Assembly: GCA_943328785.2 (NCBI GenBank)
Contig: CALQBJ020000011.1
Location: 1-33,142 of the forward strand
Direction: 5' to 3'
From: Bifidobacterium breve
GTDB lineage: Bacteria > Acidobacteriota > Vicinamibacteria > Vicinamibacterales > CAVVIG01
DNA length: 33,142 nt
In this document: piece by piece, positions 415 through 21,634 of the stretch
Layout: each line of letters begins with the position of its first letter
Numbering within the stretch: the stretch's first letter is position 1
The notes under the pieces: generated by a model
Told to the model about the DNA's origin: nothing
Databases searched by the model: none
The model's input: the letters and a program-made list of their open reading frames with translations, nothing else
Program-made: the position numbers and the translations under genes

Positions 415-1263
415 TTACTTGAGCAGAACCCGCGTCCCGCGAATCTTCTGGCTGCTCAGGGTGCTCAGGAAGTTCGGCACCAGACGGTCCATCAACTCGA
501 AGTAGGACGATAGCGCGGGTGTCATCTGCTGCGCGTTGTAGAGCACCTCTTCGCGATAGCTCTCCGAGTACATCGTCGCGCCCGAGCGGCCGTCGATGAA
601 GATGAACTTCGGCCGCAGGATGAAGCCCTTGCGTTCGAGGTAGGTGCGGGTGGGGATGACACGGCGCCTGCCGAAGGAGTCGTACTCCTCGACGTCGCGC
701 GAGACGAATCCCGAGCGCGAGTGTGGCGTGAACAGCACCGTGCCGGTGACGATGAGCGGGTTCTGGTATTCCTCGCCGATCCGCTTCCAGTAGGCGGTGT
801 TGGCGAAGAGTCGCTCGTAGGGCTCGAGGTCCTTCTCTTCCCGGATGCGCTGCGGCAGCGCCATCGCCTGCGGGCTACTGCGATCGGCCACCGTCGTCGG
901 GTGCGGGCCGTCTGACGGGGACGCGTCGGCCTGGTCACCGCTCCGGCCCTGTTCCTGCGCGATTTCCATCAGCGGCATCGGGTCGGCGTCGATGATGCGA
1001 AGCCCGGACTTCGATCGCAACTGGCTGCGGAGCAGGCGCACCGTTTCCTGGTTCGTGTCGACGTCCTCGGTGCCGCCCGCGACGAAGCCGGCGATCAGCA
1101 CACGCTGGAACGGCGTGACGTCCAGCTTCGGCTGGATCGGCGTCTCGATCGGAATCTCGAACGAGACCGGGCCGCAGGCAATGAGCGTGGCGACGCCGGA
1201 CGCGGCAAGCAGGCCGAGCCAGCGACTACGGCGTGTCCTTGTTGTCGGCCCCAGTCCGGTCAT
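415..1263 (-). CDS. Lipoprotein of unknown function
   Basis: 282 residues. A twin-arginine-like basic N-terminus (RTRRSR) is followed by a hydrophobic segment and the lipobox LIAC, with Cys30 as the lipidation site. The mature part starts with a Pro-rich spacer. A segment VLIAGFVAGG followed by a helix and RIIDADPMPL suggests an alternating alpha/beta domain, reminiscent of lipoproteins that have a CsgG-like fold, but I cannot assign a family. An acidic, low-complexity stretch (residues about 105-135) interrupts it. Start choice: AAGGAA lies 6 bases before the ATG at 1263. The gene overlaps the end of the TPR gene by 38 bases, so the two are probably co-translated and may work together in the periplasm or outer membrane. 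Confidence 0.7.
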   Translation of the reverse strand: MTGLGPTTRTRRSRWLGLLAASGVATLIACGPVSFEIPIETPIQPKLDVTPFQRVLIAGFVAGGTEDVDTNQETVRLLRSQLRSKSGLRIIDADPMPLMEIAQEQGRSGDQADASPSDGPHPTTVADRSSPQAMALPQRIREEKDLEPYERLFANTAYWKRIGEEYQNPLIVTGTVLFTPHSRSGFVSRDVEEYDSFGRRRVIPTRTYLERKGFILRPKFIFIDGRSGATMYSESYREEVLYNAQQMTPALSSYFELMDRLVPNFLSTLSSQKIRGTRVLLK

Positions 1264-1585
1264 TGATTTCCTTGAACAGTTCGTAGTTCTGGCGAATCTG
1301 CACGTTGTTCGGATCGATCTCGAGCGCCTTCTCGTACGCCTGACGCGCTTTGTCCAACTGTCCCTCGTGCTCGTAGGCGACGGCGAGGTTGTTCAGGGCG
1401 GGTGCGTACTTCGGGTCGATTTCGGCGGCGCGCTCCCACCGATAGATCGCCTCACGCCAGAGTCCGCGCTGCGCGACGTCGATGCCGAAGGCCACCTGCG
1501 ATTTGGCGTCGCTGCGCGGGTCGGCATAGGCGGAAGTGCCGAGGAGCGCGGCGAACAGCGTGCAGGCGAGAAGGCGCGTATGCAT
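1226..1585 (-). CDS. Small periplasmic TPR protein
   Basis: 119 residues from the ATG at 1585. Residues 1-21 form a signal peptide with likely cleavage after AYA. Residues about 29-96 contain two tetratricopeptide repeats; the second, LNNLAVAYEHEGQLDKARQA, fits the TPR pattern well, and each repeat ends in an EIDP motif. TPR proteins act as protein-protein adaptors. The short length and export signal suggest a periplasmic scaffold, perhaps for the lipoprotein encoded next, whose start lies inside this gene. The longer reading frame upstream (to 2050) lies antisense to dprA and gives no recognisable protein, so I chose the signal-peptide start. A promoter fits at 1607-1634. Confidence 0.75.
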   Translation of the reverse strand: MHTRLLACTLFAALLGTSAYADPRSDAKSQVAFGIDVAQRGLWREAIYRWERAAEIDPKYAPALNNLAVAYEHEGQLDKARQAYEKALEIDPNNVQIRQNYELFKEINDRTGADNKDTP

Positions 1586-1634: not shown

Positions 1635-1862
1635 GGCAATTGGCGCGCATCAAACCCTTCGGGCGAGCAAGCGATGTGCCACGTCAACACGCTCGAAATC
1701 CCTGCAATCTTGCACAGAAGGTGGGGCGCCGACTTACGAAACGTCGTTGCACTGTCGCCAAGTGGGAGCGGACCGAACGCTATACTGGACGCGGTCGGGC
1801 TCCGCGTGTGACAGCGGCGGCTCGACGTGGTGCGTACGCGCCCGGACCGCCTGGAGACGCGC

Positions 1863-5718: not shown

Positions 5719-7151
5719 TCCGCATCATTGGTGGCGGCCTCGCTGGATGTGAGGCTGCATGGCAGGTCGCGTCAGCGGGCCTCCCGGTTACGCTGTACGA
5801 GATGCGCCCGGTGCGCGGCACCGCCGTGCACAAGACCGACCGGCTCGCCGAACTGGTCTGCAGTAACTCGTTTCGCGGCGACAAGGTCGACAACGCCGTC
5901 GGGCTCCTCAAGGAGGAGATGCGCCGGTTGGGATCCCTGGTGATACGCGCCGCCGAGGCGAGCCGTGTGCCCGCCGGGGCGGCCCTGGCCGTCGACCGTG
6001 AGCGCTTCGCCGACGCCATCACCGCGGCCATCGCCACGCATCCGCTGATCACCATCGTGCGTCAGGAAGTGACCTCGCTTCCGGCTGCCTCCGTCGACGA
6101 ACCACTTATCGTTGCCACGGGACCGCTCACGAGCGAGGGACTGTCTGGTGAGATTGCCCGGTTGGTCGGCAGTAGTCAGCTCTACTTCTACGACGCCATC
6201 AGCCCGATCGTCCTGGCTGAGTCGATCGACCGCACCAAGGTCTTCCGTCAATCGCGCTGGGACCGCAGCCTCAGGAATGCCCCTGCTCCAGTTGGAGCGG
6301 AGGCTGGCGTCGCCAGCGAGGGGTCTCAGCCTTCCGCGGCGGACGTCGCCGGCGAGAGCGGCCCGGCCATTGGTTGCGGCATCGACGATGGGCAGGGCGA
6401 CTACCTGAACTGTCCGCTGAACAAGGACGAGTACCTGCGCTTCTACGACGCGCTGACGCACGCCGAGTCGGCGACCGTGCACGACTTCGACAAGGAGCGC
6501 TTCTTCGAAGGGTGTCTACCGGTCGAGGTGATGGCGCACCGCGGTGTGGACACGTTGCGGTTCGGGCCGATGAAGCCGGTTGGTCTCACCGATCCGCGCA
6601 CGGGCCGTTTCCCCTACGCGGCGGTGCAGTTACGCCAGGACAACCTCGCGGCTGATCACTTCAGCCTCGTCGGCTTCCAGACGCAGTTGAAGTGGGGCGA
6701 ACAAGCGCGGGTGCTACGGCTGATTCCAGGTCTCGAGCAGGCGGAGTTCGTGCGCTACGGCATGGTGCACCGCAATACCTACGTCAACGGTCCCACGGTG
6801 CTCTCGGAGACGTGGCAACTGAAGCAGCATCCCGCCATTTTCTTCGCCGGCCAGATGTCAGGTGTCGAAGGCTACGTCGAGTCGGCCGCCTCTGGCCTGC
6901 TTGCCGGGTTGAATGCCGCGGCGCTCGCCCGTGGACGGGCCACGTCGGCGCCGCCGCGCACCACCGCCATCGGCGCGCTGGCCTACTACGCGTCGCACGC
7001 CGACCCGGCTCACTACGAGCCGTCGAACATCACGTTCGGCATCATGGAGCCGCTGGTGAAGCCGCCGCGCAGCAAGATGGAGCGGAAGATGGCGATGGCG
7101 AATCGCGCGCTCGACGTGCTCGCGGACTGGATGCGGGACAGGGCGGAATGA
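5715..7151 (+). CDS. trmFO: Folate-dependent tRNA (uracil-54) methyltransferase TrmFO
   Basis: 478 residues. It makes ribothymidine at U54 of tRNA using methylene-tetrahydrofolate and FAD. The FAD-binding start IGGGLAGCEAAW (5-16) is clear. The family blocks ELVCSNSFRGD (Cys49) and FFEGCLPVEVMAHRG (Cys267) carry the two functional cysteines; DYLNCPLNKDEY and RYGMVHRNTY are also present. The protein is about 40 residues longer than usual: an Ala/Gly/Ser-rich insertion (about 186-227) sits between RQSRWDRSL and GDYLNCPLNK. At DNA level this insertion carries two neighbouring inverted repeats (see 6285-6317). The reading frame stays open and all family motifs flank it, so the enzyme is probably active. 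The start overlaps the topA stop and xerC starts at its own stop, so the cluster is translationally coupled. Confidence 0.95.
   Translation: MIRIIGGGLAGCEAAWQVASAGLPVTLYEMRPVRGTAVHKTDRLAELVCSNSFRGDKVDNAVGLLKEEMRRLGSLVIRAAEASRVPAGAALAVDRERFADAITAAIATHPLITIVRQEVTSLPAASVDEPLIVATGPLTSEGLSGEIARLVGSSQLYFYDAISPIVLAESIDRTKVFRQSRWDRSLRNAPAPVGAEAGVASEGSQPSAADVAGESGPAIGCGIDDGQGDYLNCPLNKDEYLRFYDALTHAESATVHDFDKERFFEGCLPVEVMAHRGVDTLRFGPMKPVGLTDPRTGRFPYAAVQLRQDNLAADHFSLVGFQTQLKWGEQARVLRLIPGLEQAEFVRYGMVHRNTYVNGPTVLSETWQLKQHPAIFFAGQMSGVEGYVESAASGLLAGLNAAALARGRATSAPPRTTAIGALAYYASHADPAHYEPSNITFGIMEPLVKPPRSKMERKMAMANRALDVLADWMRDRAE
6285..6317. repeat. Two adjacent palindromes inside the trmFO insertion
   Basis: GCTCCA-GT-TGGAGC (6285-6298) is followed four bases later by GCTGGCG-T-CGCCAGC (6303-6317). 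Both are perfect inverted repeats with loops of 1-2 bases. They encode the start of the non-conserved insertion of TrmFO (residues about 191-201). The arrangement resembles a small palindromic repeat element that entered the gene in frame; this is inference, because no second exact copy occurs in the window. Confidence 0.5.
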
Positions 7152-8164
7152 TCGAGTACCTGAAGGCCTTCCTCAGGTTCCTCGCCCTCAACCGCAACGT
7201 GTCGCCGCACACGGTGCGGGCCTACGACAGCGACCTCACGCAGTTCATCGGTCACGTCGCCGCCGAAGCCGACCTGAAGAAGCGGGAGCTCGAGCCGGAG
7301 GCGCTCGACCGCGACGCCATCCGCTCGTTCCTCTCGCACCTCCACGACGAAGGGCAGTCGCGGGCGACCGCCGCCCGCAAGCTCGCCGCCATCCGCACCT
7401 TCCTCCGCTACCTGCGTCGCGAAGGCATCATCGACTCGGACGCTGGCTCGCTCATCGCCACGCCGAAGCGCGAAGTGCGGATGCCGGCCCACCTGTCTGA
7501 GGAGGAGATGGCGCGGATGCTCGAGGCGCCAGACGACGAGCAACCGCTCGGCCGCCGTGACCACGCCATTCTCGAGCTGTTCTATGCGTCGGGACTCCGG
7601 CTGAGTGAACTCGCCGGACTCGACATCGACGACGTGAACCTGAGCGGACGCATGGTGCGCGTGCTCGGCAAGGGTGGCAAGCAGCGGCTGGTGCCGTTCA
7701 ACGGCGCCTCGGCGAAGACCATTCGCGCCTGGCTGCAGGACCGTGAGCAGTACGTGCGGAATGCGGGCACCGACGAGCGGGTCATCGGCTCACGCGCCCG
7801 CGACCAGCGGAAGCAGACCGGCCGCACGCGGCGGGAGCCGATCTTCGTGAACTATCGCGGCGGGCGCCTGACCGTGCGCAGCATCGATCGGCTGGTGCGC
7901 AAGTACGCGGCGGTGACCGAGCGCGACGGGGTCAGCCCGCACGCGCTCCGACACTCGTTCGCCACGCACCTGCTGCAGCGCGGCGCCGACCTGCGCACCA
8001 TCCAGGAACTGCTCGGACACTCGAAGCTGAGTACCACGCAGCGCTACACGCACGTGAACGCCGCGCAGTTGCTCGCGGTCTACAAGAAGGCACACCCGCG
8101 CGCCATCGCCGACACTCGCAGCGGTCACGACCGCACGACCGAGCCGAAGAAGTCCGCCGGCTGA
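7148..8164 (+). CDS. xerC: Tyrosine recombinase XerC/XerD
   Basis: 338 residues. Xer recombinases resolve chromosome dimers at the dif site together with FtsK. The N-terminal SAM-like core-binding domain covers about 1-95. The catalytic set is complete: Arg151 (SGLRLSEL), Lys175 (GKGGKQR), His265 and Arg268 (HALRHSFATH), His291 (LLGHSKLSTTQ) and nucleophile Tyr300 (RYTHV). There is a basic insertion of roughly 18 residues (about 225-245, including SRARDQRKQTGRTRR) between Lys175 and His265 compared with E. coli XerD spacing. The context after topA-trmFO points to XerC rather than a phage integrase. Its ATGA overlaps the trmFO stop. It converges on the regulator gene at 8184 with only 19 bases between and no visible terminator. 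Confidence 0.93.
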   Translation: MIEYLKAFLRFLALNRNVSPHTVRAYDSDLTQFIGHVAAEADLKKRELEPEALDRDAIRSFLSHLHDEGQSRATAARKLAAIRTFLRYLRREGIIDSDAGSLIATPKREVRMPAHLSEEEMARMLEAPDDEQPLGRRDHAILELFYASGLRLSELAGLDIDDVNLSGRMVRVLGKGGKQRLVPFNGASAKTIRAWLQDREQYVRNAGTDERVIGSRARDQRKQTGRTRREPIFVNYRGGRLTVRSIDRLVRKYAAVTERDGVSPHALRHSFATHLLQRGADLRTIQELLGHSKLSTTQRYTHVNAAQLLAVYKKAHPRAIADTRSGHDRTTEPKKSAG

Positions 8165-8183: not shown

Positions 8184-9608
8184 CTACGACGCCGCCGAGA
8201 ACGACGTGTCGGCCGGGCTCAGTGGCGCCGCGCGCCGGCCACGCGGGAACTCGATGCCGAGCGTCTTGATTTTGTAGTTCATGACGCGGGGCGAGATGGA
8301 CAGCAGCTCCGCCGCATCCTTCTGCACCCAATTCGACATCTTGAGCGCCTCGATCAGTGCGAAGCGCTCGATATCGTCGAGCGGAATCCCGGTCGGCGGA
8401 ATGCGGACGATCGTCGCATGCTCGCGCGAGCTGCCTGGTGTCGGCGCCTCGCCGAGCCGCAAATCGTCGGCGGCGATCACGCGCCCTTCCGCCAGCAGCA
8501 TGGCGCGTTCGATGGTGTTCTCGAGTTCGCGGATGTTGCCCGGCCAGTTGTAGCGCATCAGCAGTTTCTGCGCCTCGGGTTCGAGCCCTTCGATCCGCTT
8601 CTTCAGTTCGCCCGAGAACTTGTGGATGAACGAATGGGCGAGTGGCACGATGTCGTCCTTACGTTCGCGCAGCGGCGGCATCTCGATCGAGACGACGTTC
8701 AGGCGGTAGTAGAGGTCCTCGCGGAACAGCCCTGTCTGCACCATCGCCGGCAGGTCGCGGTTCGTGGCCGCGATGAGGCGCACGTCGACCCGCAGCGTGC
8801 GCGTGCCGCCGAGCCGCTCGAACTCGTGCTCCTGCAGCACGCGCAGAATCTTGGCCTGCGTGTTCGGACTCATGTCGCCGATTTCGTCCAGGAACAGCGT
8901 GCCGCCGTCGGCCTGTTCGAAGCGGCCGATGCGCTGTTTGTCGGCGCCGGTAAAGGCACCCTTCTCGTGGCCGAACAGCTCTGATTCGAGCAGGTTCTCC
9001 TGCAGCGCGGCGCAGTTCACCTTCACGAAGTTCCGCGAGTTCCGCAGCGAGTTGTGGTGCGTCGCGCCGGCGATCAGTTCCTTGCCCGTGCCGGTTTCGC
9101 CGCGAATGAGCACCGTCGTGTTGCTCTTCGCCACCTTCTTGACGATGTCGAGCACGCGCTGCAGGGCTGCGCTCGAGCCGACGATCTTGTCGAACTCGTA
9201 GATGTCCTGTTGGGTACCGCGGAGGTAGTCGAGTTCGTGCTTCAGCCGCTTCATCTCGAGCGCCTTCTCGATCTTGACCTCCATCTCCTCGATCTCGAAC
9301 GGCTTCTGCACGTAGTCGAAGGCGCCGATCTTCATCGCCTCGACCGCGGTGTTGACGTTGCCGAACGCGGTCATCAGGATGACGGCCGTCGAGGGGTGCA
9401 TGGCCCGCGTCGTGCGCAGCACGTCCATGCCGTCGCTGCCGCCCATCTTCAGGTCGCTCAGCACGACATCGAAGTGGCTCTCGTGCAGGCGCTCGATCGC
9501 GGCATTGCCATTGGAGGCCTCCTCGACCTCGTGTCCGGCATCCGCCAGACCGCGTGCCAGACCGCGGCGCAGCGCATCGTGATCGTCCGCAATGAGTATT
9601 CGACCCAT
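8184..9608 (-). CDS. NtrC-type sigma-54 response regulator
   Basis: 474 residues. It has three domains: receiver (1-120) with phosphoacceptor Asp52, Thr80 and Lys102; AAA+ sigma-54 activator domain (about 140-380) with Walker A GETGTGKE (170-177), GAFTGAD (217-223, the sigma-54 contact loop) and Walker B TLFLDE (237-242); and a Fis-type HTH (about 412-462, AAELLSISPRVMNYKIKTLG). It should open sigma-54 promoters when phosphorylated. The PAS kinase gene lies 17 bases upstream on the same strand, so the two form a pair. A sigma-54 promoter at 20956-20971 is a possible target in this window; this link is inference. The exact signal is unknown. Confidence 0.93.
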   Translation of the reverse strand: MGRILIADDHDALRRGLARGLADAGHEVEEASNGNAAIERLHESHFDVVLSDLKMGGSDGMDVLRTTRAMHPSTAVILMTAFGNVNTAVEAMKIGAFDYVQKPFEIEEMEVKIEKALEMKRLKHELDYLRGTQQDIYEFDKIVGSSAALQRVLDIVKKVAKSNTTVLIRGETGTGKELIAGATHHNSLRNSRNFVKVNCAALQENLLESELFGHEKGAFTGADKQRIGRFEQADGGTLFLDEIGDMSPNTQAKILRVLQEHEFERLGGTRTLRVDVRLIAATNRDLPAMVQTGLFREDLYYRLNVVSIEMPPLRERKDDIVPLAHSFIHKFSGELKKRIEGLEPEAQKLLMRYNWPGNIRELENTIERAMLLAEGRVIAADDLRLGEAPTPGSSREHATIVRIPPTGIPLDDIERFALIEALKMSNWVQKDAAELLSISPRVMNYKIKTLGIEFPRGRRAAPLSPADTSFSAAS

Positions 9609-9625: not shown

Positions 9626-10822
9626 CTATTTGAACCAGCTCGATGTGGACGCGACCGGCAGCGTCACCCTGAACCGCGTCCCGCGTCCGGGTTCGCTGGT
9701 GAGATCGATCCGTCCGTCGTGTGCGTCGATGATCTTCCGCACGATCGGCAGGCCCAGGCCAGAGCCGGTGACCTTGGTCGTGAAGAAGGGGTTGAAGATC
9801 CGGTCGCTCAGGTGTGCCGGGATGCCCGGGCCGTCATCGATGACGGCGACGACGATGACGGGCGTCGGCTCCGGGGCATCGGCGGCAAAGCCGGGGTCCT
9901 GCGCCAGCGACTCGAGCGAGGCACGGAGCACGACCTGTCCGGTGCCGTTCATCGCCTCGAAGGCATTGGTCAGCAGGTTCGAGAACACCTGGCAGAGCTG
10001 GTGTTCGTCGCCGTCCATCAGCGGCAGTCCGTGGGCGACATCGACGTCGATGCGGATGTCGCGGCGCGGCACCTTGCTCTCGGCGTTGGTCACCGACTGC
10101 TTCAGCACATGCGCGATGTCGGTCTGCTCGACCTGTAGCCGGATCGGCCGCACGAACTCGAGCATCTCGACGACGATGGCGTTGGCCAGCTTCGTCTCGC
10201 TGAGGATGTCGGCCAGCAGCGACTGGGCGTCCGGTGAATCGGGCACCTGGCGGCGGAGCAGGCCGGCCATCACCTCGATGCCGGCGAGCGGGTTCTTCAG
10301 TTCGTGCGCGATCCCTGCCGCCATCTCGCCGAGCGAGACGAGACGGTCGCGCAGACGCTCGCGCTCCTCCATCTGCTCGACGTGCGTGAGGTCCTTGAAG
10401 AACAGTACGGCGCCAATGGCGGCGTCTGCCTCGTCGCGCACCTGCGACAGGGTGAAGCCGATGACCCGGTCCAGTTCCTTGAGCCGCAGTTCCGCGCGGT
10501 TCGGCAGCGTGGTCAGGACGAAGGCGCCCGAGAGGACGCGGACGAGGTCGGGCCACTGGCGGAACGTGTCGCTGAACGGGCTGCCGAGTGTGGCGTCCTC
10601 GCGGGCGATGGCGAAGATGCGGCAGGCCTCGTCGTTGATCAGCGCCAGCCGGCCGTCGCGATGGATGGCGATGACGCCGTTCCGCATGCTGCTGACCAGA
10701 TGCCTGAAGAAGCGGTCGTCGGGCGAGGCGCCCGTATCTGCCTGGGCGGCCCCGGCCACCTTGGCGGTCGAGGTGCGTCGTGCGCGAGGCGTGGCGGTGG
10801 ACGGCGGTCGTATCGAGGGCAT
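9626..10822 (-). CDS. Soluble PAS-domain sensor histidine kinase (NtrB-like)
   Basis: 398 residues from the ATG at 10822. A basic, Ser/Thr/Ala-rich N-terminus without a membrane segment is followed by a PAS domain (about 37-150, HLVSSMRNGVIAIHRDGRLA). The dimerisation helix has GIAHELKNPLAGIE with phosphorylated His173. The ATPase domain has an N-box (NLLTNAFEAM), DDGPGIP and GSGLGLPI. The kinase should therefore be cytoplasmic and phosphorylate the regulator encoded 17 bases downstream. A longer frame (to 11407) overlaps the ABC-F gene and is not convincing. A weak sigma-54-like site lies 25 bases before the start (10847-10861), which would allow autoregulation. Confidence 0.9.
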   Translation of the reverse strand: MPSIRPPSTATPRARRTSTAKVAGAAQADTGASPDDRFFRHLVSSMRNGVIAIHRDGRLALINDEACRIFAIAREDATLGSPFSDTFRQWPDLVRVLSGAFVLTTLPNRAELRLKELDRVIGFTLSQVRDEADAAIGAVLFFKDLTHVEQMEERERLRDRLVSLGEMAAGIAHELKNPLAGIEVMAGLLRRQVPDSPDAQSLLADILSETKLANAIVVEMLEFVRPIRLQVEQTDIAHVLKQSVTNAESKVPRRDIRIDVDVAHGLPLMDGDEHQLCQVFSNLLTNAFEAMNGTGQVVLRASLESLAQDPGFAADAPEPTPVIVVAVIDDGPGIPAHLSDRIFNPFFTTKVTGSGLGLPIVRKIIDAHDGRIDLTSEPGRGTRFRVTLPVASTSSWFK

Positions 10823-20043: not shown

Positions 20044-20931
20044 TTACGGCTCGGCCCGTTCCAACTCGCCCTTGTAGGTAATGGTGCGCTCCGGCGTGAT
20101 GCGGACTTCGAACGACAGCGGCTCGTAGCCGTCGAGGCGCACCTCGATGCGATGCGGACCGGGTTCGAGACGCAGTTGCTGGAACACGCCGTCATAGTCG
20201 TCGACCGAGCCCGCGAAGTAGCCGTCGACGAACACCTCCGCCTGCCGAGGTGTGACTTTCAGCTTCAGCGCCCCGTCGTAACCCTCGCGGTAGCCGTAGC
20301 TGTAACCGCCGGGCGGATACGGGTCGTACCAGCCCCCGCCCCACGGGTCGTAGTAGCCGTAGTAGCCGCCGAGCCCCAGGCCGCCCCAGCCCCAGGGATA
20401 GTAGCCGCCGTAGTAACCGCCGCGATTGACGATGACGGTGGGCGGGCGGTCGCCGTCGCGCCGCTCGACCGCCGTGCCTGTCGTCGGGCGATCGCCACGC
20501 GGACGGGCGGTCGCCTCGCCGCCGCCGGAGGCGCGACCCGAGTCGGCGCCGCTGCCGCTGCGGGTGCGGGTATCACCGCCCGAGTTGCCGCCGGACCGCG
20601 TGCCGCCGCCGCTGGAGGTGCCGCCGCCAGCAGTCGAGCCGCCGCCGGCCCCGGAGCCGCCCCGTGGCACCGCCTGCCCACCGCCACCACCGGAATCGCC
20701 GCCGCCACGGCGGGAATGTTGTTCGAACAGAGGCGCCGCCGCGCCGGTCGACCCTGGCCGCATGGCGCGCAGCTCCACGGTCGAGTGGGGCAGCAGGGTC
20801 GCCGGTTGTGCCGGCCTGGCCGAGACCGTGCCTGGCGTGAGGCCGAGAAGCGCCGCGGCCAGCGCGCCGCCGAGCGCGCTCAGCGCACGTGTTACCGGAA
20901 CACCGACGGAGATTCGCGATTTCGCAGTCAT
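20044..20931 (-). CDS. Exported Gly-rich protein with C-terminal PEGA domain
   Basis: 295 residues. An N-terminal signal peptide or anchor covers about 1-38 (ALLGLTPGTVSA). Residues about 75-150 are a Gly/Ser/Arg/Thr-rich low-complexity linker. Residues about 170-220 are Tyr/Gly/Pro/Trp-rich (YYGGYYPWGWGG). The C-terminus (about 222-293) is a PEGA domain (LKLKVTPRQAEVFVDGYFAG then EPGPHRIEVRLDGYEPLSF), a surface-associated beta fold. GGAG lies 8 bases before the ATG. The low-complexity parts suggest a flexible envelope protein. A well-matched sigma-54 promoter precedes it, so it may answer to the NtrC-type regulator at 8184-9608 or another one. Confidence 0.88.
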   Translation of the reverse strand: MTAKSRISVGVPVTRALSALGGALAAALLGLTPGTVSARPAQPATLLPHSTVELRAMRPGSTGAAAPLFEQHSRRGGGDSGGGGGQAVPRGGSGAGGGSTAGGGTSSGGGTRSGGNSGGDTRTRSGSGADSGRASGGGEATARPRGDRPTTGTAVERRDGDRPPTVIVNRGGYYGGYYPWGWGGLGLGGYYGYYDPWGGGWYDPYPPGGYSYGYREGYDGALKLKVTPRQAEVFVDGYFAGSVDDYDGVFQQLRLEPGPHRIEVRLDGYEPLSFEVRITPERTITYKGELERAEP

Positions 20932-20955
20932 GGGCGTGGCTCCGAACAAGGGAAC

Positions 20956-20971
20956 TGCAACCGGTCTGCCA
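20956..20971 (-). promoter_or_regulatory. Sigma-54 promoter (-24/-12) of the PEGA gene
   Basis: The minus strand reads TGGCAGACCGGTTGCA. This matches the sigma-54 pattern TGGCAC-N5-TTGCW at all core positions but one (G for C in the -24 element), with the GG and GC pairs 10 bases apart. Transcription would start near 20945, leaving a leader of about 14 bases that still contains the GGAG site before the ATG at 20931. The position and spacing fit well. Confidence 0.65.
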
Positions 20972-21064
20972 GCCTCATCCCGCTGGAATGGGCCTGTTTT
21001 ACACGTTCGAACGGCGGGCTGCGCCGGGCTGTCCTGGTGCGAGTCCACCGCGCGTCCCGTTTTC

Positions 21065-21094
21065 TTGACACCCTGATCTCCGGGCCGATACAGT
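21065..21094 (+). promoter_or_regulatory. Sigma-70 promoter of hslVU
   Basis: A perfect -35 TTGACA (21065-21070) is followed after 18 bases by TACAGT (21089-21094); GATACA with a 16-base spacer is an alternative -10. The start of transcription would fall near 21101, about 6 bases before the hslV ATG, and no Shine-Dalgarno motif is present. A leaderless or nearly leaderless hslV message is likely. Confidence 0.6.
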
Positions 21095-21106: not shown

Positions 21107-21634
21107 ATGTTCCACAGCACTACCATCCTCGCCGTGCGCCACCGCGGTCAGTCGGTCCTGGCCGGCGACGGCCAGGTGACGTTCGGCCAGACGGTCATGA
21201 AGCAGAGTGCGAAGAAGATTCGCCGACTCTACAACGACCGTATCCTGGCCGGCTTTGCCGGATCGGCGGCGGACTCGTTTGCGCTCTTCGCCCGTTTCGA
21301 ATTGAAGCTCGAACAGTACCGGGGCAATCTCGAGCGTTCCGCCGTGGAACTCGCCAAGGACTGGCGCACCGACCGCATCCTGCGACGGTTGGAGGCGATG
21401 CTCATCGTGCTCGACACCAGGTCGACCTTCCTGCTCTCGGGCACCGGCGACCTGATCGAGCCGGACGACGGGATCGTGGCCATCGGGTCGGGCGGTCCGT
21501 ATGCCCTGTCGGCGGCGCGTGCGCTGGCGGCCAACACCGAGCTCGACGCCAGGACCATCGCGCAGAAGTCGATGCAGATTGCCGGCGAGATCTGCATCTA
21601 CACGAACACCAATATCGTGCTCGAAGAGCTGTAG
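21107..21634 (+). CDS. hslV: ATP-dependent protease HslV (ClpQ), peptidase subunit
   Basis: 175 residues. HslV forms the double-hexamer proteolytic core of HslUV in the cytoplasm. The start [11 protein letters not shown] matches family members in which a short propeptide is removed to expose the catalytic Thr (Thr5 here). [14 protein letters not shown] (19-32) and [20 protein letters not shown] follow in normal spacing. Length is typical. hslU starts 3 bases after its stop. The gene follows its own promoter instead of being run on from xerC as in Bacillus-type clusters. Confidence 0.96.

Follow-up and report, generated by a model that had tools for sequence, protein, structure and literature searches.

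The gap between hslV and a divergent gene for an exported PEGA-domain protein raises the question of which RNA polymerase transcribes the PEGA gene, and with the help of which activator. The gap lies in a window of 33,142 nucleotides, the whole stretch of DNA analysed here, which corresponds to contig 11 of a draft genome of 3.83 Mb (Table 1). The PEGA protein scored 27 bits against Pfam model PF08308 (gathering cut-off 20.8), with the domain at its C-terminus.

The -24/-12 element ahead of the PEGA gene

An initial annotation of this DNA had described a near-consensus sigma-54 site with the right spacing on the minus strand, 26 bases from the start codon. The 16-mer TGGCAGACCGGTTGCA was found as described, read from 20971 to 20956, with the spacer GACCGG separating TGGCA from TTGCA. 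Its GG and GC are separated by 10 bp, the distance that sigma-54 requires, and when compared with TGGCACN5TTGCW its sole departure is a G instead of C at the sixth base. The close placement stood but the exact figure did not, as 24 nt separate the end of the element from the ATG at 20931. Setting C20957 as -12 puts the predicted +1 near 20945, and the short leader this implies keeps a Shine-Dalgarno sequence. The presence of a sigma-54 site before the PEGA gene is thus confirmed at the level of the sequence.

Table 1. Features of the window discussed in the text.
Feature	Position	Strand	Basis
Sigma-54 -24/-12 promoter element TGGCAGACCGGTTGCA	20956..20971	minus	Exact match, intergenic, conserved before orthologues
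Predicted leader, about 14 nt, with Shine-Dalgarno GGAG at 20940-20943	20932..20945	minus	Sequence
Proposed activator (enhancer) dyad TGGACTCGCACCAGGACA	21030..21047	minus	Motif found de novo among orthologues; its left end lies 76 bp before the -24 box
hslV promoter, sigma-70-like, TTGACA-N18-TACAGT	21065..21094	plus	Conserved in relatives
hslV, divergent neighbour	21107..21634	plus	Homologues next to the PEGA gene in the majority of relatives
Exported Gly/Tyr-rich PEGA-domain protein, 295 aa, signal-peptide-like start	20044..20931	minus	Pfam PEGA PF08308, translation
Sigma-54 activator (receiver, AAA+ with GAFTGA, Fis-type HTH), candidate for the PEGA dyad	8184..9608	minus	Pfam PF00072, PF00158, PF02954
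Histidine kinase (PAS-HisKA-HATPase) adjoining the activator gene; start codon approximate	9626..10759	minus	Pfam, adjacency in relatives

The window contains two exact matches to TGGCAN6TTGCW, against a mean of 0.06 in shuffled sequences. When up to two mismatches were allowed, 21 matches were found where 29 were expected. As this degenerate count shows no excess, only the exact form is informative, and we relied on exact matches and conservation. Across the genome there were 12 exact matches against 9 for the pattern read backward. This lack of enrichment in the raw count is what would be seen if the 16-mer were a coincidence and the PEGA gene were transcribed from an ordinary sigma-70 promoter. 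Against that, all 12 genomic matches are intergenic and each is oriented toward the downstream gene; by a simple gene finder, the non-coding share of the window is about 5%. Judged by eye from translations, the genes behind the 12 sites include those for a type IV pilin, a hydrogenase small subunit, a TonB-type receptor, a cytochrome c and a DksA-like protein.

The second exact site of the window, TGGCACATCGCTTGCT (1666-1681, minus strand), precedes the gene for an exported TPR protein (1226-1585, minus strand). A similar site is kept in many relatives, usually 89-98 bp ahead of the TPR gene. In these relatives a sigma-70-type TTGC...TATAGT promoter often comes after the site, which has no clear dyad of the kind described below. 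A further exact site (G000 contig 93, 11822-11837) lies before a lipoprotein gene whose next neighbour is the divergent gene of a sigma-54 activator, C93c, an arrangement that suggests self-control.

Conservation of the element and an upstream dyad

We compared the locus with 40 relatives in the Acidobacteriota, mostly Vicinamibacteria and almost all metagenome-assembled. The presence of rpoN had been left to be checked by the initial annotation, and the gene was found in the genome itself (Sigma54_DBD, E=3.7e-66, contig 260), together with AAA+ activators carrying GAFTGA, as in other systems of sigma-54 and enhancer-binding proteins. It was also matched in 35/40 relatives. The five without a match include G004 and G012 (96% complete), both of which retain the PEGA-gene site, and the missing rpoN probably reflects assembly gaps. 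With rpoN nearly universal among the relatives, its loss was of no use as a natural test of the site.

Homologues of the PEGA protein were present in 38/40 relatives. In most of these the PEGA gene and hslV are divergent, with the site 132-146 bp from the hslV start. In 26 of 30 loci, the window itself being one of the 30, the PEGA gene is preceded by the element TGGCAN6TTGC; 24 of these elements are exact matches to TGGCAN6TTGCW and two end in TTGCC. The four loci without it comprise a deletion in G015 and three that either lack a neighbouring hslV or run into the end of a contig. The first match in G039 (L061) proved to be a paralogue, and the syntenic copy (L279) carries the site and a weak dyad. 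From 80 further loci we obtained 27 that were hslV-linked and previously unused. The exact core was found in 25 of these held-out loci and a near match, with one mismatch, in one more. The -24/-12 site is thus kept before orthologues whilst its flanks drift, bearing out the conservation that the initial annotation had looked to.

Amongst 51 unique sites, whose core letters were fixed by the selection pattern, information is mostly confined to TGGCAR-N4-G-TTGCW. Elsewhere in the spacer and in the flanks the signal is close to noise, indicating that conservation of the core is not mere slow drift. Two positions at the spacer edges are also kept: a purine (A or G) occupies the sixth position in 50/51 sites and a G precedes TTGC in 43/51. 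Canonical sigma-54 promoters by contrast have C as the sixth base.

Some relatives have a sigma-70-type box, GTGCAA-N17-GATACT, upstream; GATACT occurs within 60 bp upstream in 8/51 loci and is 17 bp from GTGCAA in several. In G015 (L047 / L102) a deletion has shortened the PEGA promoter region, the sigma-54 element is lost and a TATACT-like box stands near the start. Both observations could be taken to favour a coincidental 16-mer, but retention of the core in dozens of loci despite drifting spacers and flanks, along with the phased dyad described below, makes that explanation highly improbable. They also fit dual control, in which sigma-54 would be joined by an upstream sigma-70-type promoter in part of the family and G015 would have retained only the latter type of box. 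We regard dual control as unlikely, given that the GATACT box is weak, occurs in few loci and has no counterpart in the genome under study. A PEGA paralogue elsewhere in the G015 genome has both a dyad and a sigma-54 site.

At hslV, TTGACA followed after 15-19 bp by a TA-type -10 was found in 24/51 loci and in no random windows, with a pattern widened after viewing the sequences; a narrower pattern gave 8/51. The sigma-70-like promoter proposed earlier for hslV is therefore seen beyond the window, and as far as sequence goes the suggested contrast of two polymerases serving one gap stands.

We searched for motifs in the interval from the hslV promoter to the -24 box and recovered an 18-bp dyad, TGYNCT-N6-AGGACA (TGTC-N10-GACA type), which the initial annotation had missed. 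The motif reached a log-likelihood of 152, whereas shuffled sequences gave 50-60. When its own genus was excluded, TGGACTCGCACCAGGACA scored 18.5. Among 1.21 million positions in the loci compared, which include other PEGA promoters, 16 scored as high. Scores of at least 9 were reached by 76% of held-out upstream regions, compared with 2.8% in random windows, 2.2% in shuffled sequences and 4% when sequences were reversed. There are good -24/-12 sites without a clear dyad, for example those of L218, L221 and L239.

The distance from the dyad to the -24 box ranges from 55 to 100 bp and clusters near -56, -66, -77, -88 and -100. The best period was 10.8 bp, with R values of 0.73 for PEGA genes and 0.62 for the BON genes described below. 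The Rayleigh p-value for the PEGA dyads (4e-9) is over-optimistic because the sequences are related and not independent. Looping between an activator and the sigma-54 polymerase demands spacing in whole helical turns. The lineages differ in dyad distance by approximately whole turns, which matches this requirement, and the dyad is as expected of an activator site that acts through DNA looping. In its GG and GC 10 bp apart, its intergenic position and its helically spaced upstream dyad, the PEGA promoter resembles the sigma-54 (RpoN) promoters served by NtrC, NifA and ZraR-type activators, and it would be an ordinary member of that class. The site thus appears real and looks functional. Since rpoN is present, the element is conserved and a helically phased dyad is conserved alongside it, sigma-54 control of the PEGA gene, the central claim of the initial annotation, is strongly supported by sequence evidence.

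A putative envelope regulon

The 40 genomes were also searched with an open pattern, TGTC-N10-GACA followed by TGGCAN6TTGC, with a spacing of 48-78 allowed. Ten matches were found, against none for the backward pattern. They precede the genes of five PEGA paralogues, three BON-domain exported proteins, one small lipoprotein-like protein and one other. All ten dyads lie at -58, -66 to -69 or -76 to -77, whereas the pattern permitted any spacing from 48 to 78. In a search based on the BON protein, nearly all of 29 orthologues had sigma-54-like sites ahead of them and most had the dyad. The BON gene of the genome under study (contig 5) has its dyad at -77, but its -12 reads GA, not GC. None of the other exact sigma-54 sites in this genome had a comparable dyad.

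Several other observations touch on this search. Several BON promoters, for example G000:C5:21493-21508, L142, L143 and L138, have a recurring variant at -12, TTTGAT or TTTGAA where TTGC is expected. In G027 and G039 (L116 and L117) an HlyD-type efflux gene has repeated TGTCC/GGACA upstream of a sigma-54-like site; these HlyD-family genes seem to represent a different system and were not counted as members. In G027 a dyad was also seen ahead of the ECF sigma gene in the block that includes the PEGA gene, but other genomes gave no convincing counterpart and it was likewise set aside.

Recurrence of the dyad before PEGA paralogues and BON envelope genes suggests a small envelope regulon under sigma-54, with counts that rest on pattern searches. 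We think it probable that such a regulon extends across the Vicinamibacterales, undescribed so far, in which an enhancer-binding protein acting on TGTC-N10-GACA would activate several PEGA proteins and one BON exported protein from dyads shifted by whole helical turns. Together with the enhancer, this PEGA/BON regulon is the new part of the present work. A limited literature search found no description of it, no sigma-54 regulon for these Acidobacteriota and no paper combining sigma-54 with the PEGA domain. That sigma-54 controls the bacterial exterior is a general idea of Francke et al. 2011 (PMC3162934), in the main text of which the word Acidobacteria was not found. In line with their prediction, the putative targets here are exported envelope proteins.

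Candidate activators

The initial annotation had suggested the NtrC-type regulator of the window (8184-9608) as the activator of the PEGA gene. The domains of a sigma-54 activator are indeed present, and the adjoining kinase (9626-10759) is likely its partner; its role at the PEGA gene is that of a candidate only, amongst about 26 sigma-54 activators in the genome. Orthologues of the regulator, 76-91% identical, occur in most relatives, and order-wide it shares with the PEGA gene the block from topA to hslU, a large block that includes housekeeping genes. In G037 (L271, C27, about 6878-7542) only remnants of the pair survive, one from the N-terminal part of the kinase and the other a 111-residue ORF that matches the C-terminal HTH region of the activator; this genome has also lost the PEGA gene at hslV and the BON gene. 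The HTH remnant may still bind DNA.

By contrast, G008, which has a reduced 2.6-Mb genome that is 98% complete, argues against the window regulator. Its ABC-F gene and xerC (L269, L270) have other neighbours, the kinase-activator pair is not there and no orthologue of the regulator was found in this genome, yet its PEGA gene retains a strong dyad (score 18.6) and the promoter. G037 points to the window regulator and G008 away from it. No dyad was found beside the regulator's own operon, which also counts against it. That the promoter is driven specifically by this regulator with its kinase is possible but, on this balance, doubtful.

An activator-by-activator comparison of three genomes identified four others, C32, C301, C111 and C93c, that have reciprocal best matches between the genome under study and G008 and none in G037. 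Their distribution matches the retention and loss of the PEGA/BON dyads and also weakens the case for the window regulator. We would give roughly even odds that one of these, or another activator that recognises TGTC-N10-GACA, drives the sigma-54 promoter. The comparison spans only three genomes, and neither the four genes nor any other activator gene has a dyad nearby, both of which tell against this choice.

Known families of sigma-54 activators were also compared. PEP-CTERM/PrsR sigma-54 systems pair an NtrC-type regulator with exported targets, and in both respects the present locus resembles them. Unlike those systems, the window regulator scores 413.9 against PrsR TIGR02915, below the cut-off of 502.6, and the PEGA protein has no PEP-CTERM-like tail. 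QseF/GlrR, a sigma-54 activator of enteric bacteria, has the published site TGTCN10GACA (PMC8745638), which adds to the case for an activator with that specificity. The dyad arms and spacing are the same here, most clearly ahead of BON genes (TGTCCT-N6-AGGACA), but the left arm of PEGA dyads is often just TGYN and the targets are PEGA and BON genes, not glmY. The window regulator scores 334.6 bits against the GlrR equivalog, below the cut-off of 763, and an orthologue of GlrR was not found. Likeness to GlrR/QseF sites would thus be a lead on the DNA-binding domain only.

Taken together, we put a probability of roughly 0.88 on the following model. Sigma-54 RNA polymerase would transcribe the PEGA gene from the -24/-12 element, and an AAA+ enhancer-binding protein would bind the 18-bp dyad, with looping of the intervening DNA. 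ATP hydrolysis would then open the promoter and transcription would begin near the predicted start, whilst the divergent hslV in the same gap would use its ordinary sigma-70-type promoter. We infer that a single activator would run the small cell-envelope regulon across the Vicinamibacterales, through the same dyad and promoter pair ahead of other PEGA-family genes and of the BON-domain (OsmY-like) exported protein. Promoter and putative enhancer can both be read from the sequence, offering a testable regulon for PEGA and BON proteins, two poorly understood envelope families. A shared regulon would tie these families to each other and would offer a set of naturally occurring enhancer spacings that differ by whole helical turns.
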